NCBI RefSeq assembly: GCF_003968755.1
Contig: NZ_RYDL01000008.1
Coordinates: forward strand, 1-64,000
Length of the DNA: 64,000 bases
From: Flavobacterium sp. RSP15
GTDB lineage: Bacteria > Bacteroidota > Bacteroidia > Flavobacteriales > Flavobacteriaceae
Direction of reading: 5' to 3'
Made by a program: the position numbers and the translations under genes. The notes under the pieces were generated by a model. It was not told the DNA's origin. It did not search any database and worked only from the letters and a program-made list of their open reading frames with translations. Shown one piece after another: positions 36,584 to 48,977 of the stretch. Every line of letters starts with the position of its first letter. Position 1 is the first letter of the stretch.

Positions 36584-38149
36584 TTATTTTTGGTTTAAAA
36601 TTGCTCCAATCATCAAGGCACATTTTTCTCCATCTATTGCAGCCGAAATAATTCCGCCCGCATAACCGGCGCCTTCTCCACAAGGATACAGCCCTTTTAT
36701 TTGAACATGTTCATAGGTCAAAGGATCTCTGGGAATACGCACCGGAGATGACGTTCTGGATTCTGGCGCATGTAGTACTGCTTCATTAGTCATATAACCT
36801 CGCATTGATTGTCCAAATTCAGTAAATCCTTCCCGTAATATCTGCGTTAAAAAATCGGGAAAAACCTGCCCCATTTCTACCGAAGTTGTTCCAGGCACAT
36901 ACGATGTTTTTGGGATATCTGATGAAACTCGGTTTTGTGTAAAATCAATCATGCGTTGTGCCGGGACTTTTTGGCTTTCGCCAGCTAAATGCCAAGCGCG
37001 TTGCTCGATACTTTTTTGGAATTCCATTCCAGCCAAAGCACCAAATTTAGCCCAAGGTTTAAAATCCTCCAGTTGCAATTCAATTACAATTCCGGAATTG
37101 GCAGTAGCCTGATCCCTTTTGGATGGAGACCAACCGTTAGTAACCACTTCGCCGGGACTCGTAGCGCAAGGAGCAATCACCCCGCCAGGACACATACAAA
37201 AGGAATATATTCCCCGGCCTCCTACTTGCTTCACAATAGAATACGGAGCGGGAGGTAAAAACGCTCCACGATAATCACAATTGTACTGAATGCTGTCAAT
37301 CAAAGATTGCGGATGTTCTGCACGCACGCCCAAGGCAAAAGGTTTAGCCTCGATAAAAATCTTTTTTCGGTCTAACAATTCAAAAATATCACGAGCAGAA
37401 TGTCCCGTAGCCAAAATAACTTTATTAGCAAGAATTGTATCCCCTTTTTGAGTAACTACACCCTGAACTTCATTATTTTTTAATAAAATATCGATCAATC
37501 GGGTTTCAAATAATACCTGCCCACCACATTCGATGATTTTCTCTCGAATGTCCTGAATAATCTGAGGTAATTTATTTGTTCCAATATGCGGATGCGCCTC
37601 AATGAGAATATCTTCGGAGGCTCCAAAAGCGACAAACAACTCCAAGACACGCGTTACATCACCTCTTTTTTTAGAACGCGTATACAACTTCCCGTCCGAA
37701 TAGGTTCCGGCACCGCCTTCGCCAAAACAATAATTGGAATCTTCATTGACGACATGATCGAGATTGATGGCTTTTAAATCTCTTCGTCTGCCCCTAACGT
37801 CTTTTCCACGCTCGACAACTATAGGTTTCAGCCCTAATTCGATCAATTGCAAAGCAGCAAAAAGACCGGCGGGTCCAGCGCCAACAACAATTACTTCTTG
37901 AGCTGAGGAAACATTTTTATACTCCGGAAGTTGTATTTTTTGCTCTTGAAAAAGCTCTCCTTTTAAATAAATCATAACTTTAAGATTTATTTTTATCGCT
38001 TTTTGGCGGGCATCAATCGATCTTTTTAAAATAGAAATATGTTGAATTTCAGTTACAGAAACGGTAATTTGTTTTGACAAATGATTTTTTAGCAGCACAT
38101 CATTTGCTGCAATTTCCGGGGATACTTGTAATAAGAGTTCTTGAGGCAT
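36584..38149 (-). CDS. NAD(P)/FAD-dependent oxidoreductase (COG2509-type)
   Basis: A 521-residue flavoprotein. Residues 1-80 form a small N-terminal domain. The FAD dinucleotide motif VVGAGPAGLFAALQL is near 87, followed by ERGKDVRGRRRD and NYCFGEGGAGTYSDGKLYTR near 138. Later motifs are VILATGHSARDIF, CMCPGGVIAPCAT near 332 and LYPCGEGAGYAGGIISAAID near the end, the full pattern of this uncharacterised dehydrogenase family. Substrate unknown. Single gene, leftward. Confidence 0.88.
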   Translation of the reverse strand: MPQELLLQVSPEIAANDVLLKNHLSKQITVSVTEIQHISILKRSIDARQKAIKINLKVMIYLKGELFQEQKIQLPEYKNVSSAQEVIVVGAGPAGLFAALQLIELGLKPIVVERGKDVRGRRRDLKAINLDHVVNEDSNYCFGEGGAGTYSDGKLYTRSKKRGDVTRVLELFVAFGASEDILIEAHPHIGTNKLPQIIQDIREKIIECGGQVLFETRLIDILLKNNEVQGVVTQKGDTILANKVILATGHSARDIFELLDRKKIFIEAKPFALGVRAEHPQSLIDSIQYNCDYRGAFLPPAPYSIVKQVGGRGIYSFCMCPGGVIAPCATSPGEVVTNGWSPSKRDQATANSGIVIELQLEDFKPWAKFGALAGMEFQKSIEQRAWHLAGESQKVPAQRMIDFTQNRVSSDIPKTSYVPGTTSVEMGQVFPDFLTQILREGFTEFGQSMRGYMTNEAVLHAPESRTSSPVRIPRDPLTYEHVQIKGLYPCGEGAGYAGGIISAAIDGEKCALMIGAILNQK

Positions 38150-38617: not shown

Positions 38618-39436
38618 CTACAAACTAAGAATTGTCTTCACCAATAATTTACTTAATTTTTCATCCGCCATTCCTGCTACTGCAATAATCTCTGGAATAT
38701 CAACAGGTTTTAGATTGTCTGGATCACATTCATCCGTAATCACGCTAATCGCAGCACAAGGTAATTTTAATTGATTAGCAACAATAACCTCTGGAGTAGT
38801 ACTCATTCCTACCATATCTGCTCCAATAATTCCTAAATATCTGTATTCAGCTCGTGTTTCTAACTGAGGTCCAACAACAGAAGCATAAACCCCTTTTTTC
38901 AGATTAATATTTAATTCCTTAGTGGCTTCTAATAATTTTTTATTTAAAATTCTATCATAAGGCGCACTCATATCGGGGAAAATACCGCCATATTCAAATG
39001 AATTCAATCCAGACAACGGACTTCCGCCTTGTAAATTAATATGGTCATCAAGTAAAACCAAATCTCCTTTTTTTAAATTTCTATTAATTCCTCCAGCTGC
39101 ATTGCTCAAAAATAATTGTTGAATTCCCAGTTGTTGCAATACACGAATAGGAAAAGTAATTTCCTGTAAACTATATCCTTCATACAAATGAAAACGCCCT
39201 TGCATAGCAATTACTGAAACTGAACCAATAGTTCCAAATATTAGTTTACCTTTATGAAATTCAATTGTGGATTGTACAAAATTAGGAATGTCAGTATAAT
39301 TAATAGTAAATTTAATTTCCAAATGATCTAAAAACTTACCTAAACCAGTTCCTAAAACGACTCCAACCTGTGGATCAACAATTCCTTTTTCTCTTAAAAA
39401 AAAAGCAGTTTGATTGATTTGTTCTAAATAGTCCAT
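38618..39436 (-). CDS. purine-nucleoside phosphorylase
   Basis: Phosphorolysis of purine nucleosides to base and ribose-1-phosphate; 272 residues, trimeric PNP type. Seen: VGVVLGTGLGKFLDHLE with the phosphate loop, MQGRFHLYEGYSLQEITFPI near 78, LFLSNAAGGINRNLKKGDL near 110, GPQLETRAEYRY near 187 and MVGMSTTPEVIVAN. It is divergent from, and 53 bp away from, the DUF547-led arsenosugar operon. In arsenosugar synthesis, adenine must be released from a dimethylarsinoyl-deoxyadenosine, a natural task for a PNP; this link is inferred. Confidence 0.92.
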   Translation of the reverse strand: MDYLEQINQTAFFLREKGIVDPQVGVVLGTGLGKFLDHLEIKFTINYTDIPNFVQSTIEFHKGKLIFGTIGSVSVIAMQGRFHLYEGYSLQEITFPIRVLQQLGIQQLFLSNAAGGINRNLKKGDLVLLDDHINLQGGSPLSGLNSFEYGGIFPDMSAPYDRILNKKLLEATKELNINLKKGVYASVVGPQLETRAEYRYLGIIGADMVGMSTTPEVIVANQLKLPCAAISVITDECDPDNLKPVDIPEIIAVAGMADEKLSKLLVKTILSL

Positions 39437-39489
39437 ATTTTAAAAACTTTTATTTTGTAATTACGTACATACTATAAATATACTTAAAA

Positions 39490-40245
39490 ATGAGAAAATA
39501 TTTCTTGCTAATATTACTATTTTCTATGCAATTGGTTTCGGCACAAGAAATAGATTATATCAAAATGTCACAAAAATTCATTGAATCGGCAAAGTTTCAA
39601 GATGATAGCACCGCATATTTTATTGAAAAATTCGCGACAGCTGATGAAAATATTCTAAAAAAACAATTAATTAATGATAATTCAAAGAAAGCCTTTTTTA
39701 TTAATCTTTACAATGGTTTTACAAATAATGCATTAAAAAAAAATCCAGAGAAATATAAAAATAGAAACAAATTTTTTAAAAGCAAGCAATTTGTTCTTGC
39801 TGGTCACAAAATAAGCTTGGATATCATAGAACACGGTTTTTTGAGAAGATCAAGTATTAAATGGAGTTTGGGAAAAATGAATAAGATTTTCCCTTCTAAA
39901 CTAGAAAAAGATTTCCGAGTTGAAAAAGTAGATTACCGAATTCATTTTAGTTTAAATTGCGGTGCAAAAAGTTGCCCAATGATCGCTTTTTATGATCCAG
40001 CAAAAATTGATGCTCAACTGGATACTGCAACAAAAAGTTATTTAACAGGAGACGCTAGTTATGATGCTACAAAAAATATACTTTCGTTGCCAGTTTTAAT
40101 GAGTTGGTTTAGAGGAGATTTTGGAAATAAAAAAGGGATATTGAAAATCTGTGAAAATCTAAAAATTATACCAGAAAATACAAACCCAAAATTAAAATAC
40201 AATAAATACGACTGGACTTTATATTTAGAAAACTTCAAATATTAA
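39490..40245 (+). CDS. exported DUF547 protein
   Basis: A 251-residue protein with a Sec signal (MRKYFLLILLFSMQLVSAQ). The DUF547 core shows KKAFFINLYNGFTNNAL near 75, FLRRSSIKWSLGKMNKI, and YRIHFSLNCGAKSCP near 155, followed by SYLTGDASYDATKNI and LPVLMSWFRGDFG. The Cys/His arrangement recalls papain-like folds, but activity is unproven. It starts the rightward run that continues after 5 bp with the AhpD-like gene of arsenosugar clusters, and I recall DUF547 genes in such clusters elsewhere. Confidence 0.8.
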   Translation: MRKYFLLILLFSMQLVSAQEIDYIKMSQKFIESAKFQDDSTAYFIEKFATADENILKKQLINDNSKKAFFINLYNGFTNNALKKNPEKYKNRNKFFKSKQFVLAGHKISLDIIEHGFLRRSSIKWSLGKMNKIFPSKLEKDFRVEKVDYRIHFSLNCGAKSCPMIAFYDPAKIDAQLDTATKSYLTGDASYDATKNILSLPVLMSWFRGDFGNKKGILKICENLKIIPENTNPKLKYNKYDWTLYLENFKY

Positions 40246-40250
40246 AAAAA

Positions 40251-40586
40251 ATGGATACTAATTATTACAATGCAAACGATTTAGCAAAATTTGGAAATAT
40301 CGTAGAATTCCAAAAAGAAATGGGTGAAAAATTCTTTGGTTATTATGGTGAAGTTTTTAAAGAAGGTGAATTAACAGCAAAAGAAAAATCATTGATTGCT
40401 CTTGCGGTTGCTCATGCGGTTCAATGTCCTTATTGCATTGATGCCTATAGTACCGACGCTTATGAAAAAGGATATAGCGAAGGTCAGATGATGGAAGCAG
40501 TTCACGTTGCTGCCGCTATTCGTGGCGGAGCAAGCCTCGTTCACGGCGTACAAATGATGAATAAAGTTAAGAAAATTGCTCTATGA
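40251..40586 (+). CDS. arsenosugar-associated peroxidase-like (AhpD/CMD family) protein
   Basis: A 111-residue carboxymuconolactone-decarboxylase-like protein with the AhpD redox motif VQCPYCIDAYSTDAYEKG near 62-79 and EAVHVAAAIRGGASLVHG. I recognise the family as the one defined by association with ArsS/ArsM (TIGR04169). Its stop overlaps the arsS ATG by 4 bp (ATGA), implying translational coupling. It may recycle a disulfide or handle peroxide for the arsenic pathway; unproven. Confidence 0.85.
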   Translation: MDTNYYNANDLAKFGNIVEFQKEMGEKFFGYYGEVFKEGELTAKEKSLIALAVAHAVQCPYCIDAYSTDAYEKGYSEGQMMEAVHVAAAIRGGASLVHGVQMMNKVKKIAL

Positions 40587-41650
40587 GCGAGTTTAAAAAA
40601 GTAATTCTAAAATCATTAAAGTCAAAAGATAGTTCCTTATCTAATGCACAAAATCAAATATTAACCTTACAACAGAATCCAGAAAAATTCAAACCTTTTA
40701 GTGCTAGTTTAAGAGCAATAGGTGTCAATAGTTTAAAACCTACACAGCTTGAAATTTTTCAGGTTAATCTCGGAAAAATGTGCAACCAGGTTTGTACACA
40801 TTGTCACGTTGATGCTGGTCCGGATCGTAAAGAAATTATGACTAAGGAAACCATGCAATTGTGTTTGGATGTATTGAAAGCAAATCCGTCTTTCAAAATT
40901 GTAGATATGACTGGTGGTGCTCCCGAAATGAATCCTAATTTCCGATGGTTTGTTGAAGAAATTAGTAAATTAAATATTCAAATGTATGTTCGTTGTAATT
41001 TAACCATTATTCGTGCAAACAAAAAGTATTATGATTTGCCAGAATTTTTCAAATTACATAAAATCGAAGTGATTTCTTCCCTTCCATTCTATTCTCAGTC
41101 AAGAACCGATAAACAACGTGGCGATGGTGTTTTCAAAAGCTCTATTACCGCTTTACAAATGCTGAATGAAGTAGGTTATGGTAAAGAAAATAGTGGCTTA
41201 ACACTCAATTTAGTCTACAATCCTGCTGGAGCTTTTCTTCCGCCAGATCAAAAAGCATTAGAAAATGAGTTTAAAACTAATCTGAAAAAGGATTTTGATA
41301 TAGAATTCAATAGTTTATTTGCAATTACTAATTTACCAATAAGTCGTTATCTGGATTATTTAGTTGTTTCGGACAATTATGAAGATTACATGACCAAATT
41401 AATTAACGCATTTAATCCATCAGCAGCACTTAATGTGATGTGTAGAAATACAATTTCTGTAGGTTGGGATGGATTTTTATATGATTGTGATTTTAATCAA
41501 ATGTTAGAATTAAAAGTGGCAGCACCAGGCTCTCAACATCTATCAACTTTTAAAAGTGAAGCATTATTAAAACGTACAATTATAGTCAACAACCATTGTT
41601 ATGGCTGTACCGCTGGTGCAGGAAGTAGCTGTGGCGGTGCCGTAGCATAA
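40583..41650 (+). CDS. arsS: arsenosugar biosynthesis radical SAM protein ArsS
   Basis: A 355-residue radical SAM enzyme. The 4Fe-4S site is CNQVCTHC (CX3CX2C) near residues 68-75, followed by HVDAGPDRKE and the GG-type motif DMTGGAPEMNP. The C-terminal cysteines (MCRNTISVGWDGFLYDCDF; NNHCYGCTAGAGSSCGG) suggest an additional cluster. Cyanobacterial ArsS is reported to join a 5'-deoxyadenosyl group to dimethylarsenite, the first committed arsenosugar step. Start overlaps the AhpD-like gene; arsM follows 40 bp on. Confidence 0.92.
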   Translation: MSEFKKVILKSLKSKDSSLSNAQNQILTLQQNPEKFKPFSASLRAIGVNSLKPTQLEIFQVNLGKMCNQVCTHCHVDAGPDRKEIMTKETMQLCLDVLKANPSFKIVDMTGGAPEMNPNFRWFVEEISKLNIQMYVRCNLTIIRANKKYYDLPEFFKLHKIEVISSLPFYSQSRTDKQRGDGVFKSSITALQMLNEVGYGKENSGLTLNLVYNPAGAFLPPDQKALENEFKTNLKKDFDIEFNSLFAITNLPISRYLDYLVVSDNYEDYMTKLINAFNPSAALNVMCRNTISVGWDGFLYDCDFNQMLELKVAAPGSQHLSTFKSEALLKRTIIVNNHCYGCTAGAGSSCGGAVA

Positions 41651-41690
41651 TTTTAAAATATTATAAACAACAAAAAATAAGAATATAAAA

Positions 41691-42662
41691 ATGGAAAATT
41701 ATTTAGACGCAACAACAGATTTATACAGAGAAGCAGCCTTAACTCCTGATGTAGGATTGTGTTGTACAACTACCCCAATTTGGAAATTTCCTGGTTTGGA
41801 AATTCCAAAAATCATGCAGGAAATGAATTATGGCTGCGGAAGCACAATTAGCGCACAAGATTTAATAAATAACCCAAAAATACTTTATGTTGGTGTGGGT
41901 GGAGGAATGGAATTACTCCAATTTTCTTATTTTTCACGTCAAAAAGGTGGTGTCGTTGGTGTCGATGTCGTAGACGAGATGCTCGAAGCTTCAAGACAAA
42001 ATTTTATAGTAGCCGAAAAAGAAAATGACTGGTTCAAAAGCGAATTCGTAGAACTGAAAAAAGGAGATGCACTAAATCTTCCTATCGAAGATGAAACTAT
42101 TGATATTGCTGCTCAAAATTGCTTATTCAACATTTTTAAAACCGATGATTTAAGAAAAGCATTACAAGAAATGTACCGTGTTTTAAAACCTTACGGACGT
42201 TTAGTAATGAGTGATCCTACTTGTGAGCAACAAATGAATGACACTTTAAGAAACGATGCACACCTTAGAGCATTGTGTTTAAGCGGAAGTATTCCAATTG
42301 CAGAGTATATTAAAATGTTGACCGATGTAGGTTTTGGAACTATCGAAATCAGAGGCAGAAGACCTTACCGAATCTTAGATACAAAAAATTATCCTACCGA
42401 TGAATTAATCTATATTGAAAGTATCGAAGTTTGTGCTATAAAAGATCCAATGCCAGCAGATGGCCCTTGTGTTTTTACTGGAAAAGCAGCAATATATTAT
42501 GGTACTGAAAATCATTTTGATGATAAAAAAGGTCACATTCTAACGAAAAACCAACCTTTAGCAGTTTGTGATAAAACTGCGGCGGCAATTGCAGCATTAA
42601 ATAGAGATGATATTTTTATTAGTGAATCCACTTTTCATTATAACGGTGGCGGTTGTTGCTAA
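41691..42662 (+). CDS. arsM: arsenosugar biosynthesis arsenite methyltransferase ArsM
   Basis: An S-adenosylmethionine-dependent methyltransferase, 323 residues. Conserved thiols for As(III) appear in GLCCTTTP near 24 and NYGCGSTIS near 51, with others in AQNCLF and RALCLSG. The SAM fold is seen as ILYVGVGGGMELLQF near 66, VGVDVVDEML and VLKPYGRLVMSDP near 167. A C-terminal GGGCC tail ends the protein. It supplies dimethylarsenite for ArsS, and by itself could detoxify arsenite. Confidence 0.92.
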   Translation: MENYLDATTDLYREAALTPDVGLCCTTTPIWKFPGLEIPKIMQEMNYGCGSTISAQDLINNPKILYVGVGGGMELLQFSYFSRQKGGVVGVDVVDEMLEASRQNFIVAEKENDWFKSEFVELKKGDALNLPIEDETIDIAAQNCLFNIFKTDDLRKALQEMYRVLKPYGRLVMSDPTCEQQMNDTLRNDAHLRALCLSGSIPIAEYIKMLTDVGFGTIEIRGRRPYRILDTKNYPTDELIYIESIEVCAIKDPMPADGPCVFTGKAAIYYGTENHFDDKKGHILTKNQPLAVCDKTAAAIAALNRDDIFISESTFHYNGGGCC

Positions 42663-42673
42663 ATAACTATAAA

Positions 42674-43267
42674 ATGTCTTCAAAACAAGCAATAATTTTG
42701 TTTACAAAAAATCCCGAACTTGGCAAAGTCAAAACCAGACTTGCCACGACTATAGGCGATGAAAAAGCATTAGCTATTTATAAAAAATTGCTACAGCACA
42801 CCAGAGAAATTGTTACTCCGATGGAAGTGGATAAAATTTTATTTTATTCGGACACCATTATTCAAAACGATAATTGGTCTACTGCTATTTTTATGAAAAA
42901 AGTTCAGGTAGGAAATGATTTAGGCGAGAGAATGAATCATGCTTTTCAAATGGTTTTCAATCTGGGTTATGAAAGTGCCTGCATTATTGGAAGCGATTGT
43001 TATGAACTAAACACAACTATCATTGCTGAGGCTTTTGAAAGCATAAAACGCAAAAACATGGTTATCGGACCAACATTCGATGGGGGTTATTATCTGTTGG
43101 GAATGAATAAACTACATTCAAGTATTTTTAAAAATATAGAATGGAGTACAGAAACTGTTTTTGATGATACGATGAAAGAGGTTGAAAATTTGAATCTTTC
43201 CAGTCATATCCTAACCAAATTAACAGATATAGACGAAGAAAAAAATTTACCTCAACATTGGAAATAA
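42674..43267 (+). CDS. TIGR04282/DUF2064 family glycosyltransferase
   Basis: A 197-residue nucleotidyl/glycosyl transferase-like protein of the family tied to arsenosugar clusters. Seen: IILFTKNPELGKVKTRLATT near the start (nucleotide-binding loop), GNDLGERMNHAFQ, IIGSDCYELNT near 115 and IGPTFDGGYYLLGM near 138, the usual DUF2064 signatures. ATG 42674 is preferred over 42653, which lies within arsM. Its exact sugar or nucleotide role has not been shown. Confidence 0.85.
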   Translation: MSSKQAIILFTKNPELGKVKTRLATTIGDEKALAIYKKLLQHTREIVTPMEVDKILFYSDTIIQNDNWSTAIFMKKVQVGNDLGERMNHAFQMVFNLGYESACIIGSDCYELNTTIIAEAFESIKRKNMVIGPTFDGGYYLLGMNKLHSSIFKNIEWSTETVFDDTMKEVENLNLSSHILTKLTDIDEEKNLPQHWK

Positions 43268-43273
43268 AAGAAT

Positions 43274-44212
43274 TTGTATAATTTTTTTAAAATATGGGCG
43301 CGATTGGCACTGTTTTTTTATTCTAGAAAAACTGTTGCAAATTTTGCATTAATTTTAAATTTAAATCAACCCAAAATTCTCGCTTCCAATCATCCAAATT
43401 CTTTTTTTGATGCAATTGTAATAGCGGTTCATTATCCAAAACCCATTTATTTTCTAGCGCGTGGTGATGCTTTTAATAAGCCGTTAATTAAAAAATTTCT
43501 GAATGCTTTACATCTGATTCCAATTTACAGACTAAGTGAAGGAAAAGAAAATCTTTCTAAAAACGACAGTACTTTTGAGCGTTGTTTGAAATTACTAAAA
43601 AGTAACGAACATATTTTGATTTTCCCTGAAGGCGTTTGTGTAAACGAATGGAATTTGCGGAGTTTAAAAAAAGGAACTGCACGCCTGGCATTTATGGCTT
43701 TGCATCAAAAAATAAATAATCTTATTGTTCAGCCCATAAATTTGAATTATTCCTCTTTTTATAAAGTTCCGAAAGAAATCATTATTAATTTTAACGAACC
43801 AATAACAGTATCAAATTTATCAAATCATGCAGAAAATGTATTTTATAGAATTTTTAATCAAGAATTAAAAGAAGGAATTACACGAAAAATGCTGATTAAA
43901 TCTGATTTACAATACTTCGATTTATTCCCAAAAAAAGAAAATTATTTAAGAAAAATACTGTTATTTATTCCTGCTATTTTAGGATTTATAAGTCAATATT
44001 GGATTTATTTCTTTTTGAAAAAATGGGTCATAAAAAAAACCAAAAATTCCGTGTTTTATGATTCGGTGCTTTTTGGTTTATTAATGTTCTCTTATCCCGT
44101 AATAATTATTGTAATGGCAACATTCGTAGGAATCTTTTTTAATTTCAAACTCGGACTTTCAATGTTGATTTTACTTCCATTTACCGCTTGGTGTTGCAAA
44201 GAAATAAAATAG
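43274..44212 (+). CDS. PlsC-like lysophospholipid acyltransferase family protein
   Basis: A 312-residue membrane acyltransferase. The acyltransferase block has SNHPNSFFDAIVIAVHYP near 36-53 (Bacteroidetes variant of HX4D), YFLARGDAF, LHLIPIYRLSEG and LIFPEGVCVNEW near 118. Three hydrophobic helices at about 223-310 (IPAILGFISQYWIYFF, VIIIVMATFVGIFF, LSMLILLPFTAWC) anchor it. Only TTG 43274 is usable as start, 6 bp after the glycosyltransferase. It lies in one run with ArsS/ArsM, so an arsenosugar acylation role is plausible. Confidence 0.85.
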   Translation: MYNFFKIWARLALFFYSRKTVANFALILNLNQPKILASNHPNSFFDAIVIAVHYPKPIYFLARGDAFNKPLIKKFLNALHLIPIYRLSEGKENLSKNDSTFERCLKLLKSNEHILIFPEGVCVNEWNLRSLKKGTARLAFMALHQKINNLIVQPINLNYSSFYKVPKEIIINFNEPITVSNLSNHAENVFYRIFNQELKEGITRKMLIKSDLQYFDLFPKKENYLRKILLFIPAILGFISQYWIYFFLKKWVIKKTKNSVFYDSVLFGLLMFSYPVIIIVMATFVGIFFNFKLGLSMLILLPFTAWCCKEIK

Positions 44213-44216
44213 ACAA

Positions 44217-45245
44217 CTATTTCACTTTGCTTAAAGCCAACATTTTTATCATCCAATTGGGTAATGGTTTTTCAAAATCACGCTTTCTTAAATCCAAAAA
44301 CCAGCCAATTTTCTTAAAAATAGGCACTTTATGGGTTTCTACTAATTCAATTAATGTTCCGTCTGGATCTTCAATATAGCAAAATCGCCCTGAAGCACTA
44401 TCCATTTCGAATGTATTATTGCTGTCAACAGTGAAATTATAGTTGTTTTTATCGGAATGTAATTTTAAAGATTTCATATCTAAAACATCTAGGCACAAGT
44501 GTATAAAACCACAATCACCCCAATATTTATTCTCGTATATTTTCTTTGGAGTTTTGTTTAAAATTTGAATTAATTCAATTTCAACCGAACCCAACAGCTT
44601 ATTAAAAGCACCTTTACCAGTGGCTTTTTTAAACAATCCTACTTTTCTATATAAATTTCCGTCAGCTTCAGTACTTTCATTATCATATAAAATTTCATTG
44701 ACACCTAAAATTTCTTTATAAAAATGCAATGATTTTTCCATGTCACTCACACCAATAACGGCACCACAAACACCACCAGTATCATGTTTACCGTTTTGAA
44801 ACCACTCAGAGGAAAAAACAATATTAAAGTTATTTCCGTATTGATCTTTTACCCAAAATTGAGATGAATTACTGTTTTTAGTTATCGCTGACACTTGAAT
44901 TCCAGAAACATTAGAAAGCCTGTTGTATGATTTTTTTATATCTAATGATTTGATTTTAGGACTATAAATCCCAAGATCACCAAGATTAACTTCATTAGTA
45001 GCAATAGGAGTTCTGTCAAGAAATTGCCAAATCTCAAAACCGCCTCCTCCTTGCAGATTCATGGTCAGAATAGCTCTTCGTTCGTGAATTTTATTACCTG
45101 TGTATTGCGACATTAATTTGGCCTGCGCTACGTCATCAAAAATTAACACATCAAGACCAAATATGCTTTTATAAACATTCATAGCTTCTTGAGCATTTTT
45201 TACTCCAATCCCAATTTGTTGAATTCCAGATAAATAATTATGCAT
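44217..45245 (-). CDS. two-domain VOC family protein
   Basis: A 342-residue protein with four VOC (glyoxalase/dioxygenase) modules. The opening LSGIQQIGIGVKNAQEAMNV lacks the usual metal His. The second half keeps likely ligands: SVEIELIQIL, CGFIHLCLDVLD near 252 (His), and EDPDGTLIELVETH near 305 (Glu). This favours one working metal site. Substrate unknown. Its stop abuts that of the acyltransferase convergently; the start abuts the SDR stop, giving a GT-SDR-VOC operon. Confidence 0.78.
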   Translation of the reverse strand: MHNYLSGIQQIGIGVKNAQEAMNVYKSIFGLDVLIFDDVAQAKLMSQYTGNKIHERRAILTMNLQGGGGFEIWQFLDRTPIATNEVNLGDLGIYSPKIKSLDIKKSYNRLSNVSGIQVSAITKNSNSSQFWVKDQYGNNFNIVFSSEWFQNGKHDTGGVCGAVIGVSDMEKSLHFYKEILGVNEILYDNESTEADGNLYRKVGLFKKATGKGAFNKLLGSVEIELIQILNKTPKKIYENKYWGDCGFIHLCLDVLDMKSLKLHSDKNNYNFTVDSNNTFEMDSASGRFCYIEDPDGTLIELVETHKVPIFKKIGWFLDLRKRDFEKPLPNWMIKMLALSKVK

Positions 45246-46052
45246 TTAAGATGTCTTGTTTTTAATACCTTTTAGGTAAGCTATTTTATAATATATCGAA
45301 GGCAAGAACCACCAAAACCAAAATAATAAGCGTTCTACTTTTGCAATAATAATGTTTTTTTTGTTCGATTGGATTCCCGAAATAATTTTTTTTGCACAAA
45401 TTCTTACATCAATTCCTACTTCATTAATATCATCCGTTTTGCCATATTGATTTCCGTTTCCTAGCAAAGCATTTTTCGAAATATCAGTATCAATTCTTCC
45501 TGGATATACGATAGAAATACTAATATTGGTTTTATATAATTCGCATTGCATAGTTTCAAAATACCCTTTCAATGCATGTTTTGAAGCTGCGTAACCTGAT
45601 CGCAACGGAAAACCCATTAGTCCGGCAAGACTACTGATTACTGTTATATTCCCTGAATTTACTTTTTTAAAATGAGGTAAAATTGCCTGAGTCAATAATA
45701 TAGGTGCAAAAAAATTGAGTTCCATCAACTTTCTGTTCACTTCAATCGATGTTTCATCAGATAATGCTCTTTGACTGATTCCTGCACATTGAATAATAAC
45801 ATCAATCTTACCTTCTAATGCTATCGCCTGATTAACGAGTTCCGGAATTGCATCAACATTCATTAAATCACAAGACAATATATGACAAACTGAATTGTGT
45901 TTTTTTAAGACTAAAGCCAATTCTTTTAATAGATTTTCATTAGATGAAGTAAGAATTAAGATCGCTTCTTGTTTAGATAATTGTACAGCCAATTCTCTGC
46001 CAATGCCAGAAGATGCGCCTGTTATCCAAACAACTTTGTTTTTAAAATGCAT
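45246..46052 (-). CDS. short-chain dehydrogenase/reductase
   Basis: A 268-residue NAD(P)-dependent SDR. Seen: VVWITGASSGIGRELAVQLS (cofactor loop TGxxxGIG), CDLMN, ISSLAG with the catalytic Ser, and YAASKHALKGY near 153 supplying Tyr and Lys. A hydrophobic-basic C-terminus (LLFWFWWFLPSIYYKIAYLK) suggests membrane contact, as in SDRs acting on lipids or glycolipids. It overlaps the upstream glycosyltransferase by 11 bp and adjoins the VOC gene. Confidence 0.88.
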   Translation of the reverse strand: MHFKNKVVWITGASSGIGRELAVQLSKQEAILILTSSNENLLKELALVLKKHNSVCHILSCDLMNVDAIPELVNQAIALEGKIDVIIQCAGISQRALSDETSIEVNRKLMELNFFAPILLTQAILPHFKKVNSGNITVISSLAGLMGFPLRSGYAASKHALKGYFETMQCELYKTNISISIVYPGRIDTDISKNALLGNGNQYGKTDDINEVGIDVRICAKKIISGIQSNKKNIIIAKVERLLFWFWWFLPSIYYKIAYLKGIKNKTS

Positions 46053-46746
46053 TCTTTCTGTAATTAAGCATTTGCTTATAAGTAGTAATCATGTCGCTTT
46101 GCGAAGCTCCTTTTTTGTACATATTTACCACTTTCAAATTGGCTAGCTGAACAGTTAACCAAGAATTCTCATCATACTTTCGGGCAGAAATAAGTGTTGT
46201 TTTTGAAATTAGTTTGAATTTCCCTGCGTTCCAGATGCGTTCTAGGAAATCATAATCTTCCATAATTAGCATTTCTTCTTTGTAATTACCGACTTTTTTC
46301 CACAATGACTTAGTAATGAAAATAGTTTGGTCGCCACCACGAAAAAAAAGATAATTGAAACGTGTAAAAAAAGCATTGATTTTTAGAATAAATCTATTGC
46401 TGTCAAAACGAGTCAGGAAACTCCCGCAATCAAAACCGTTTTCAATGGCCTTTTGGATGTCATTTTGAAAAGTCGGTGTCGGTAAACTATCGGCGTGTAC
46501 AAAATAAAACACACCGCCTTTTGCTTGTTTTACTGCATGATTCATTTGTCCTGCTCTACCTTTTACTGGAGAAACCAAAACCTTAACGCCTAACTCTATT
46601 GCAATTTGACAAGTATTATCAGAACTTACTGCATCGCTGACAATAATTTCGAAGGAATCTGATTTTAAATATTTTAGTAAATGAGAAATAGTAATCCCAA
46701 TATTTGCTTCTTCATTATAAGTGGGCATAATAATGCTTAAAAACAT
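46042..46746 (-). CDS. TIGR04283 family GT2 glycosyltransferase
   Basis: A 234-residue GT-A fold family 2 enzyme. Seen: LSIIMPTYNEEANIGITISH near the start, IIVSDAVSSDNTCQIA near 34 (D-x-S/D nucleotide site), VKGRAGQMNHAVKQAKG and FYFVHADSLPTP near 80 (DxD-like), GGDQTIFITKSLW, and LIMEDYDFLERI near 163. The family is defined by co-occurrence with ArsS/ArsM. It is first in the leftward GT-SDR-VOC series and overlaps the SDR. Confidence 0.87.
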   Translation of the reverse strand: MFLSIIMPTYNEEANIGITISHLLKYLKSDSFEIIVSDAVSSDNTCQIAIELGVKVLVSPVKGRAGQMNHAVKQAKGGVFYFVHADSLPTPTFQNDIQKAIENGFDCGSFLTRFDSNRFILKINAFFTRFNYLFFRGGDQTIFITKSLWKKVGNYKEEMLIMEDYDFLERIWNAGKFKLISKTTLISARKYDENSWLTVQLANLKVVNMYKKGASQSDMITTYKQMLNYRKNAF

Positions 46747-46781: not shown

Positions 46782-48977
46782 TTAATTCGCCACTTCGCTG
46801 ATGAATTTTATACGCATCAGACGCAATTCACAAAGATCATATTCGCCGTCAAATTCCTTGAGTGCTGCTTCAATATTATCCGATTCGGATTCCATGAAAT
46901 ACTCGTGAATTTCTTCTTGTTGTTCATCGTCAAGCATGTCGTCAATCCAGTATTTTATATTCAGCTTGGTACCAGAATACACAATTTGTTCCATTTCTTT
47001 TATTAAAACATCCATTTTAATTCCTTTAGCGGAAGCAATATCATCGAGCGATAATTTTCTGTCAATATTCTGAATGATATAGAGTTTGTTTACTGAATTG
47101 ACTCCTGTTGATTTTACGACAAGATCTTCCGGACGCGTAATGTCATTTTCTGCAACATAGCGGCTGATTAATTCTAGAAATTCTTTTCCATATTTTTTGG
47201 CTTTTCCTTCCCCAACCCCATGAATATTAATCAGTTCCTCTTGAGAAACTGGATATTTCAAAGCCATATCTTCTAGTGATGGATCCTGAAAAACTACAAA
47301 TGGGGGAACGCCAACTTTTTTAGCTACTTTTTTACGCAAATCTCGCAACATTCCCATCAAAATTTCATCTGCAACTCCGGTAGATTTTGATGCGGTTACA
47401 ATAGCCTCATCGAATGATTCGTTGTATTGATGATCTTCCGACATCATAAAGGATTTTGGTTTTTTTATAAAATCCAGTCCTTTATCGGTAATTTTGACAA
47501 TGCCATAGGTTTCTATATCTTTTGATAAATAGCCCGCTACCAAAACTTGTCGCAACAAGGCCATCCAATATTTTTCATCCTGTTTTGAACCACATCCAAA
47601 AAAAGACTGCGCATCCGTTCTATGTGCCTTGATCACTGCGTTGACGCGACCGATCAAGGTAAAAACAACTTCTTTTGATTTGTATAAATGTTTGGTATCT
47701 CGTACCACTTCCAGCAGCTGCACTACTTCAGCTTTGGCCTCTGTTTTTGTTTTTGGGTTTCTGACATTGTCATCCATATCCGCTCCTTCGCCTGTGACAT
47801 CGTCAAATTCTTCTCCAAAGTAATGCAACAGAAACTTTCTTCTGGACATCGAAGTTTCGGCGTAAGCCACAACCTCCTGTAATAAAGCAGATCCAATTTC
47901 CTGTTCTGCAACGGGTTTACCAGACATGAATTTTTCTAATTTCTCGACGTCTTTATAAGAGTAATACGCCAAGCAGTGCCCTTCACCGCCATCTCGACCG
48001 GCACGTCCTGTTTCCTGATAGTAGCTTTCTAATGATTTAGGAATATCATGGTGAATTACAAAACGCACATCTGGCTTGTCTATTCCCATCCCAAAAGCGA
48101 TGGTGGCCACTACGACATCTACATCCTCCATAAGGAACATGTCCTGATGTTTGGCACGGGTTTTAGCATCTAATCCCGCATGATATGGCACGGCACTTAT
48201 CCCGTTGACTTGCAACACCTCGGCAATAGCCTCTACTTTTTTACGGCTCAGGCAATAAATAATACCCGATTTGCCTTTATGTTGTTTGATGAACCGAATA
48301 ATATCCGATTCAATATTTTTTGTTTTAGTACGTACTTCATAATACAAATTGGGTCTATTGAAGGATGCCTTAAAAGTGGTAGCATCACACATATCCAAGT
48401 TTTTGAGGATGTCTTCCTGTACTTTAGGAGTAGCAGTAGCAGTTAGTCCTATAATAGATAAATCACCCAGTTGTTTTATGATGTGTTTCAGGTTCCGATA
48501 TTCCGGTCTAAAATCATGTCCCCACTCTGAGATACAATGAGCCTCATCTATGGCTACGAAAGAAATGCGAACGGTTTTTAGAAAATTGACATATTCTTCC
48601 TTTGTCAACGATTCCGGCGCAACGTACAAAAGCTTAGTCAATCCAGAGGTAATATCCTTTTTTACTTGCGCAATTTCAGTTTTGGTCAGGGAGGAATTTA
48701 AAACATGAGCAATCCCGTTTTCTGAGGATAAACTTCGAATGGCATCAACTTGATTTTTCATCAAAGCGATTAAAGGCGATACTACTATTGCAGTTCCTTC
48801 CTGAATTAAAGCGGGCAGCTGGTAGCATAGTGATTTACCCCCACCAGTTGGCATTATCACAAAAGTGTTCTGCTTATTCAACAGACTTTTTATGACTTGT
48901 TCTTGCAATCCCTTAAATTGGCTGAAGCCAAAATATTTCTTTAATTCTTTGTGTATTTCAATTTCGTTTGAATTCAT
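46782..48977 (-). CDS. recQ: ATP-dependent DNA helicase RecQ
   Basis: A 3'-5' helicase of 731 residues for recombination and fork repair. Motifs: the opening FGFSQFKGLQEQVI, Walker A MPTGGGKSLCYQLP near 42, DEAHCISEWGHDFRPEYR near 138, SGIIYCLSRKKVE, FGMGIDKPDVRFV and QETGRAGRDG near 322. After a winged-helix/RQC part, an HRDC domain (about 515-595) carries PPFVVFQDPSLEDMA and GVGEGKAKKYG. It is divergent from kdsD. Confidence 0.95.
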   Translation of the reverse strand: MNSNEIEIHKELKKYFGFSQFKGLQEQVIKSLLNKQNTFVIMPTGGGKSLCYQLPALIQEGTAIVVSPLIALMKNQVDAIRSLSSENGIAHVLNSSLTKTEIAQVKKDITSGLTKLLYVAPESLTKEEYVNFLKTVRISFVAIDEAHCISEWGHDFRPEYRNLKHIIKQLGDLSIIGLTATATPKVQEDILKNLDMCDATTFKASFNRPNLYYEVRTKTKNIESDIIRFIKQHKGKSGIIYCLSRKKVEAIAEVLQVNGISAVPYHAGLDAKTRAKHQDMFLMEDVDVVVATIAFGMGIDKPDVRFVIHHDIPKSLESYYQETGRAGRDGGEGHCLAYYSYKDVEKLEKFMSGKPVAEQEIGSALLQEVVAYAETSMSRRKFLLHYFGEEFDDVTGEGADMDDNVRNPKTKTEAKAEVVQLLEVVRDTKHLYKSKEVVFTLIGRVNAVIKAHRTDAQSFFGCGSKQDEKYWMALLRQVLVAGYLSKDIETYGIVKITDKGLDFIKKPKSFMMSEDHQYNESFDEAIVTASKSTGVADEILMGMLRDLRKKVAKKVGVPPFVVFQDPSLEDMALKYPVSQEELINIHGVGEGKAKKYGKEFLELISRYVAENDITRPEDLVVKSTGVNSVNKLYIIQNIDRKLSLDDIASAKGIKMDVLIKEMEQIVYSGTKLNIKYWIDDMLDDEQQEEIHEYFMESESDNIEAALKEFDGEYDLCELRLMRIKFISEVAN

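Follow-up and report, generated by a model that had tools for sequence, protein, structure and literature searches.

Flavobacterium sp. RSP15 carries a compact group of ten genes at positions 38,618 to 46,746 of the stretch analysed here, the first 64,000 nucleotides of contig NZ_RYDL01000008.1 (the window). Five of the encoded proteins scored above the cut-offs of NCBIfam arsenosugar families. These were an AhpD-like TIGR04169 protein (40251..40586, plus strand; 180 bits, cut-off 120), the radical S-adenosylmethionine (SAM) protein ArsS (40583..41650, plus strand; TIGR04167, 442.5 bits, cut-off 300) with its CX3CX2C motif at residue 67, the arsenosugar-type arsenite methyltransferase ArsM (41691..42662, plus strand; NF038099, 564 bits, cut-off 400), a TIGR04282/DUF2064 protein (42653..43267, plus strand; 212 bits, cut-off 134) that is annotated as a glycosyltransferase and predicted below to be a CofC-like sugar-phosphate nucleotidyltransferase, and a family 2 glycosyltransferase (GT2) of the TIGR04283 family (46042..46746, minus strand; 196 bits, cut-off 182). 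Since all five curated cut-offs were exceeded, the core represents an already recognised kind of cluster, and the locus is probably a dimethylarsinoyl-riboside (arsenosugar) biosynthesis cluster, as an earlier interpretation made from the letters alone (the sequence-only reading) had proposed.

The other five genes encode a purine nucleoside phosphorylase (PNP) of what we call the cluster type (38618..39436, minus strand; PF01048; NF006054, 322 bits, cut-off 218), a DUF547 protein (39490..40245, plus strand; PF04784, E-value 1.4e-30), a PlsC-like acyltransferase with a TTG start and hydrophobic C-terminal segments (43274..44212, plus strand; PF01553, 8e-18, 65 bits, cut-off 23), a two-domain vicinal oxygen chelate (VOC) protein (44217..45245, minus strand; PF00903) and a short-chain dehydrogenase/reductase (SDR; 45246..46052, minus strand; NF004825, 240 bits, cut-off 215). 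All ten open reading frames (ORFs) were open at the positions first listed, and profile matches bore out the families named for them. The group is flanked by RecQ (46782-48977) and, on the opposite side, by an ORF (36584-38149) that was called FAD-oxidoreductase-like by eye from an N-terminal GxGxxG-type motif and had no NCBIfam match at 1e-8.

The genes are tightly packed. The AhpD and ArsS genes overlap by 4 bp, and those of ArsM and TIGR04282 by 10 bp when the listed TTG start is used; the true start of the latter probably lies a few codons further in. PlsC begins 6 bp past TIGR04282, the GT2 and SDR genes overlap by 11 bp, and SDR and VOC abut. Only two gaps exceed a few bases: ArsS and ArsM lie 40 bp apart, and 53 bp separate PNP from DUF547, which are divergently oriented. 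Six other genomes with this layout had the same AhpD/ArsS (-4) and GT2/SDR (-11) overlaps in every case, together with distances of 3-7 bp from TIGR04282 to PlsC and 0-2 bp from PlsC to VOC. Such packing, similar in six further genomes, argues that the grouping is not due to chance.

ArsS above the cut-off was found in 148 of 199 genomes of Flavobacteriaceae (about one genome per genus), and in just 10 of 150 genomes of the genus Flavobacterium. Gene neighbourhoods were counted in 100 of the 148 family ArsS loci, five of which end early at contig ends. The most frequent order, on a single strand, was AhpD, ArsS, rhodanese, TIGR04282, PNP, ArsM, often a fatty acid hydroxylase (FA-hydroxylase), DUF547 and TIGR04283. 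TIGR04282 was present in 83 of these loci, PNP in 64, rhodanese in 61, ArsM in 54, DUF547 in 52 (a count of 2 obtained with a stricter threshold was not used), TIGR04283 in 49 and FA-hydroxylase in 36. An AhpD-like gene occurred in 91 or 94 loci, depending on the count, and stood immediately before ArsS in 89. PNP, DUF547, TIGR04282 and TIGR04283 are thus members of a conserved core, and PNP directly followed TIGR04282 in 60 loci. A second architecture was also seen, in which ArsS lies with a TonB-dependent receptor (19/100, for example L073:4075-5556 and L097:11305-14496) and mostly also a SusD-like protein (18/100); PNP was nearby in 2 of the 19, and these loci possibly serve the uptake of organoarsenic compounds. 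One Flavobacterium genome, 76% complete, contains an ArsS-like stretch with several stop codons (G345:C344:4-853), which may be a copy in decay or the result of faulty assembly.

The window layout recurred, with small changes, in seven Flavobacterium genomes: that of the window, F. tegetincola (L121, without ArsM), Flavobacterium sp. SUN046 (L122), two Flavobacterium metagenome-assembled genomes (L123, in which PNP and DUF547 have exchanged positions, and L124, identical to L147), L141 and L142. RecQ flanked all seven loci and the FAD-oxidoreductase-like ORF six, not being found in L121. PlsC, VOC and SDR accompanied the window ArsS variant in 7/7 genomes. PlsC and VOC were absent from the six other Flavobacterium ArsS loci (L143-146, L148 and L149, of which L145, L146 and L149 lie on short contigs), where SDR gave a single match of 55 bits. 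In an ArsS tree that was rooted at its midpoint and contained few sequences from beyond Flavobacteriaceae, the window type grouped with Dyadobacter and Rhabdobacter (Cytophagales; support 0.87), apart from other Flavobacteriaceae, and the window-type PNP clustered with that of UBA6221 (support 0.96). Both placements fit acquisition as a block, with moderate support. PlsC, VOC and SDR would then be lineage-specific tailoring genes gained along with the window variant.

The PNP was informative as to the step that might follow ArsS. It exceeded the cut-off of the PNP family NF006054 (see above) and fell below that of the methylthioadenosine phosphorylase (MTAP) model TIGR01694 (95 vs 274.85 bits). 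The genome encodes a second PNP of a more distant type (C7:19423-20220, 45% identical), which rules out the cluster enzyme as the sole housekeeping PNP. Beyond the window clade, PNPs of the cluster type were 50-62% identical to the window protein, and those of the other type 42-46%; lpxK precedes the distant type in the two loci tested, which did not include the host's own. The sequence-only reading had called for a survey of whether PNP accompanies ArsS. With PNPs typed by identity, and the window genome plus 60 of the other 147 as the ArsS-positive sample, cluster-type PNP was found in 61/61 ArsS-positive and 13/35 good-quality ArsS-less family genomes (Fisher p ~6e-13, uncorrected for kinship).

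In human PNP, His257 is the residue that we take to bind the ribose 5'-hydroxyl, and a PNP acting on 5'-hydroxy nucleosides would be expected to have His there. The window PNP has Ile247 at this position. All 94 cluster-type PNPs (70 standard, 7 window-type, 1 from UBA6221 and 16 from ArsS-less genomes) carried I, V, L or F, and all 12 distant-type PNPs, including the host's second one and leaving out the broken L155 PNP, carried His. Val occupies the same place in human MTAP, which acts on a 5'-deoxy-5'-substituted adenosine. A hydrophobic residue there would suit a substrate that lacks the 5'-hydroxyl. The window PNP shares with human MTAP both this feature and an Asp at the human N243 position (Asp235), and with human PNP it shares E201; by score it lies far nearer to PNP than to MTAP models. 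The Asp was considered as a sign of adenine specificity and rejected, both PNP types having it.

The TIGR04282 protein had been read as one of two glycosyltransferases. For TIGR04283, a GT2 above its cut-off, that assignment stands; TIGR04282 is, from its modelled structure, probably a nucleotidyltransferase and not a glycosyltransferase. The model (28 of 61 sequences; mean confidence score, pLDDT, 94) had as its top structural neighbour an uncharacterised family member, 3cgx, followed by guanylyltransferases or similar proteins (7p97, 2i5e, Rv2983). Fold-search Z scores were 19.1 for 3-phosphoglycerate (3-PG) guanylyltransferase, 18.1 for MM2497, 16.6 for Rv2983 and 13.4 for the first glycosyltransferase, and glycosyltransferases ranked level with IspD and TarI. 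The protein thus shares the fold of CofC, FbiD (Rv2983) and 3-PG guanylyltransferase with weak sequence similarity, at 13-16% identity over the structural alignments. It exceeded the cut-off of the CofC family PF01983 (25.6 bits, cut-off 22), but the score for the CofC equivalog TIGR03552 (29.7 vs 105 bits) indicates that it is not CofC itself. Given this fold and the PNP gene directly downstream in 60/100 loci, we propose that TIGR04282 activates a sugar-1-phosphate.

Taken as a whole, the best explanation, which we consider reasonably probable, is an arsenosugar locus with a route through ArsM, ArsS, PNP, TIGR04282 and TIGR04283. ArsM would methylate arsenite, and ArsS would add the 5'-deoxyadenosyl group to dimethylated arsenic, giving 5'-deoxy-5'-dimethylarsinoyl-adenosine. 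Phosphorolysis of this product by PNP would release adenine and 5-deoxy-5-dimethylarsinoyl-ribose-1-phosphate. The latter had been suggested as the glycosyl donor itself, but a ribose-1-phosphate is not what GT2 enzymes usually take as donor, and TIGR04282 is a plausible activating enzyme that would convert it to a nucleoside diphosphate (NDP) sugar. GT2 enzymes are expected to invert, so that TIGR04283 would transfer the sugar from an alpha-NDP donor to an acceptor as the beta-riboside, as in nature. The natural arsenosugar is a beta-riboside to judge from the compound name in the title of PMC6656958. The AhpD-like protein might have a redox role for ArsS or for its arsenic substrate. Gene identity, linkage, the altered PNP active site and the nucleotidyltransferase-like fold come directly from sequence and comparison; the chemistry of the PNP, NDP-sugar and GT2 steps is inferred, as are any roles of AhpD, PlsC, VOC, SDR and DUF547.

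The first two steps have precedents. In passages of PMC8552651 and PMC12159101, the ArsM and ArsS steps are described as shown in cyanobacteria (Synechocystis; Xue 2019 and Cheng 2021, as cited there), the first steps being credited to ArsM and ArsS or to radical SAM adenosylation. The window has the same two enzymes by curated models, but here they are clustered with PNP, a CofC-like protein, a GT2 and lineage-specific genes. According to a passage of PMC12583986, radical SAM adenosylation by HpnH in hopanoid synthesis is followed by adenine removal by the putative phosphorylase HpnG. This is the same logic of adenosylation and then adenine loss as proposed for ArsS and PNP; the HpnH substrate is diploptene whereas that of ArsS is dimethylated arsenic.

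Several observations weigh against this route. The hydrophobic residue at the H257 position is also present in all 16 cluster-type PNPs of ArsS-less genomes, and solved PNPs may share it, 4lna having Leu at about this position in the alignment; the change is therefore no proof of an arsenic substrate. Cluster-type PNPs retain E201, which we take to be a 6-oxopurine marker, and the Asp at the N243 position does not discriminate. In 59 of the 61 ArsS-positive genomes the cluster type was the only PNP found (E <= 1e-20), so that it could serve general purine salvage. No PNP lay within about 10 kb in 36/100 ArsS loci, a count that includes any of the five loci cut short by contig ends. Likeness in the modelled fold is likewise no proof of nucleotidyl transfer. 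Finally, a rhodanese-TIGR04282-PNP-TIGR04283 cassette was kept in 6 of 51 ArsS-less genomes, the six all being 99% complete or better (L101, L102, L103, L107, L109 and L112; DUF547 recognised in two), with no ArsS, ArsM or AhpD directly adjacent and an AhpD-like ORF four genes away in L109. Ten further ArsS-less genomes retained a cluster-type PNP without the cassette. PNP and TIGR04282 may thus have uses beyond arsenic, and in some hosts the pathway itself may not depend on it.

These cassettes lead to an alternative that we regard as unlikely: rhodanese, TIGR04282, PNP, DUF547 and TIGR04283, with the FA-hydroxylase, would make an arsenic-independent ribosylated lipid or other riboside, and ArsM and ArsS would channel an arsenic-containing variant into this route. 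All six cassette genomes had an FA-hydroxylase match, compared with 2/29 other good ArsS-less genomes (p 1.7e-5). The FA-hydroxylase (PF04116, OlsE-like; for example L054:11978-12865) is at the same time linked to ArsS, with a match anywhere in 36/36 ArsS-positive and 8/35 ArsS-less genomes (kinship uncorrected), and this, with the 61/61 count for the PNP type, indicates a strong tie to ArsS. The RSP15 genome has one on another contig (C11:78556-79425, 67% identical to the query). Matches at 67-85% identity came from 18 genomes, all ArsS-positive, and the remainder, including the eight ArsS-less genomes, lay at 51-61% (51-58% in the ArsS-less ones), so that two subfamilies may be mixed in these counts. 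The six cassettes may also be leftovers or use imported organoarsenicals. The FA-hydroxylase is a better ArsS-linked lipid-type gene than PlsC, and its tie to ArsS makes it plausible in general that the pathway is connected with membranes or lipids, albeit by a route other than PlsC.

The sequence-only reading had also suggested a lipid product, made through PlsC. The PlsC-like protein carries the motifs NHPNSFFD and FPEG as well as hydrophobic windows. H-x4-D is the catalytic motif of PlsC/LPLAT acyltransferases; in NHPNSFFD five residues separate His and Asp. The 1-acylglycerol-3-phosphate acyltransferase model TIGR00530 was not reached (49 vs 102.95 bits). In the VOC protein Q10, E71, H249 and E300 were conserved in an alignment of 18 sequences, from which two other VOC proteins were omitted, and are candidate metal ligands; its model (pLDDT 87) had general VOC enzymes (glyoxalase family, dioxygenases) as fold neighbours. 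Comparison of VOC and PlsC with PDB sequences gave nothing informative, and SDR matches were broad (11-beta-HSD1 and FabG-type chains). A hydrophobic SDR tail, which had been offered as a further sign of a lipid, was rejected as such, its hydropathy maximum of 1.17 being under the Kyte-Doolittle membrane threshold.

Outside Flavobacterium, PlsC and VOC form an old pair, one that is frequent among Cytophagales lacking ArsS. Fifteen of 16 PlsC loci had a convergent VOC gene downstream, adjoining in 13 and 1.1-1.8 kb away in two (L132, L133); in the one remaining locus, L128, the sequence stops about 1.2 kb beyond PlsC. Genome searches covered 15 of the 16 (L137's left out) and found ArsS in three and TIGR04283 in four; the 12 without ArsS all had VOC along with PlsC. 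PlsC relatives (E <= 1e-35) occurred in 12 of 392 Bacteroidota genomes, nine of them without ArsS, and VOC in 51, of which 25 lacked ArsS. The co-occurrence of VOC and ArsS was not significant across these genomes (ArsS in 26/51 with VOC vs 125/341 without, p 0.06). Parts of the PlsC-VOC-SDR module also lie beside TIGR04283 in some Cytophagales. Rhabdobacter roseus has ArsS, AhpD, PlsC, VOC and TIGR04283 side by side, Arundinibacter has PlsC, VOC and TIGR04283 linked without ArsS, and in one further genome (G549) VOC, TIGR04283 and ArsS lie no more than about 5 kb apart; these close linkages argue for a functional tie. VOC also lies less than 2 kb from TIGR04283 in G164 and G586, where ArsS is on a different contig, which makes 3/49 other genomes with VOC within 2 kb of TIGR04283 against about 0.06 expected (a rough figure that takes no account of kinship; two of the three belong to Flavobacteriaceae). 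UBA6221 carries PNP-PlsC-VOC-SDR in window order (L125:9089-12856), and no ArsS was found in its genome at E <= 1e-50.

An arsenolipid cluster, in which PlsC together with SDR and VOC would add an acyl chain to the arsenosugar, seems doubtful to us. In its favour are the position of PlsC 3-7 bp after TIGR04282 in all seven window-type genomes, though the other six PlsC proteins are 54-59% identical to that of the window, the linkages in Rhabdobacter roseus and G549, the excess of VOC near TIGR04283, and the phylum-wide sample, in which PlsC (E <= 1e-35) or VOC (E <= 1e-40) gave matches in only two Flavobacterium genomes, the window-type G000 and G227. Against it, PlsC, VOC and SDR occurred in 0/100 other family ArsS loci (apart from two weak SDR matches of 53 and 58 bits), the VOC-ArsS association was not significant, and UBA6221 has the module without ArsS. 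The sequence-only reading had held that acyltransferase and PNP genes commonly lying at this place in genomes without ArsS/ArsM would speak against it, and this was found in part: PlsC occurred without ArsS in 12/15 and 9/12 genomes and the PNP cassette in six. The lipid step is a weakly supported, lineage-specific add-on. That the locus encodes every step by which a bacterium would turn arsenite into an acylated arsenosugar lipid, through ArsM, ArsS, an MTAP-like PNP, a TIGR04282-made NDP-arsenosugar, transfer by the GT2 to an acceptor of the glycerol type, and PlsC-VOC-SDR acylation, appears quite improbable; if true, the NDP-arsenosugar would be a new kind of activated sugar.

That PNP, PlsC, VOC and SDR are unrelated housekeeping neighbours is very unlikely. 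PNP, like the PlsC-VOC pair, does turn up in genomes that lack ArsS, but the genes overlap or abut, their order is nearly constant in seven genomes at 54-80% identity, the host encodes another PNP of the distant type, and the linkage recurs in other lineages.

Arsenosugars, arsenic compounds that occur in nature, are known from algae and from some bacteria. In the literature consulted, which consisted largely of titles, abstract openings and passages, arsenosugar phospholipids are reported in an alga (PMC7345539), several yet unknown pathways are mentioned in algal arsenic cycling (PMC11009773), and TIGR04282 is counted among arsenic-stress genes (PMC11237643). Those portions assign genes just to the first two arsenosugar steps, and none was found to give PNP, TIGR04282, TIGR04283 or PlsC a part in making arsenosugars or arsenolipids. 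The core described here is of a known, labelled kind, and NCBIfam names TIGR04282 a glycosyltransferase whereas structure favours a nucleotidyltransferase; if the latter is right, the curated name needs correction. The proposal for the middle steps is new and well supported, and the lipid step is weakly supported. The pairing of TIGR04282 with PNP, the change in the PNP active site and the nucleotidyltransferase fold together yield a concrete proposal that gives each missing step a gene and can be tested in Flavobacteriaceae amenable to culture. If this proposal is right, the PlsC variant and the FA-hydroxylase would provide two separate genetic handles on bacterial arsenolipids.

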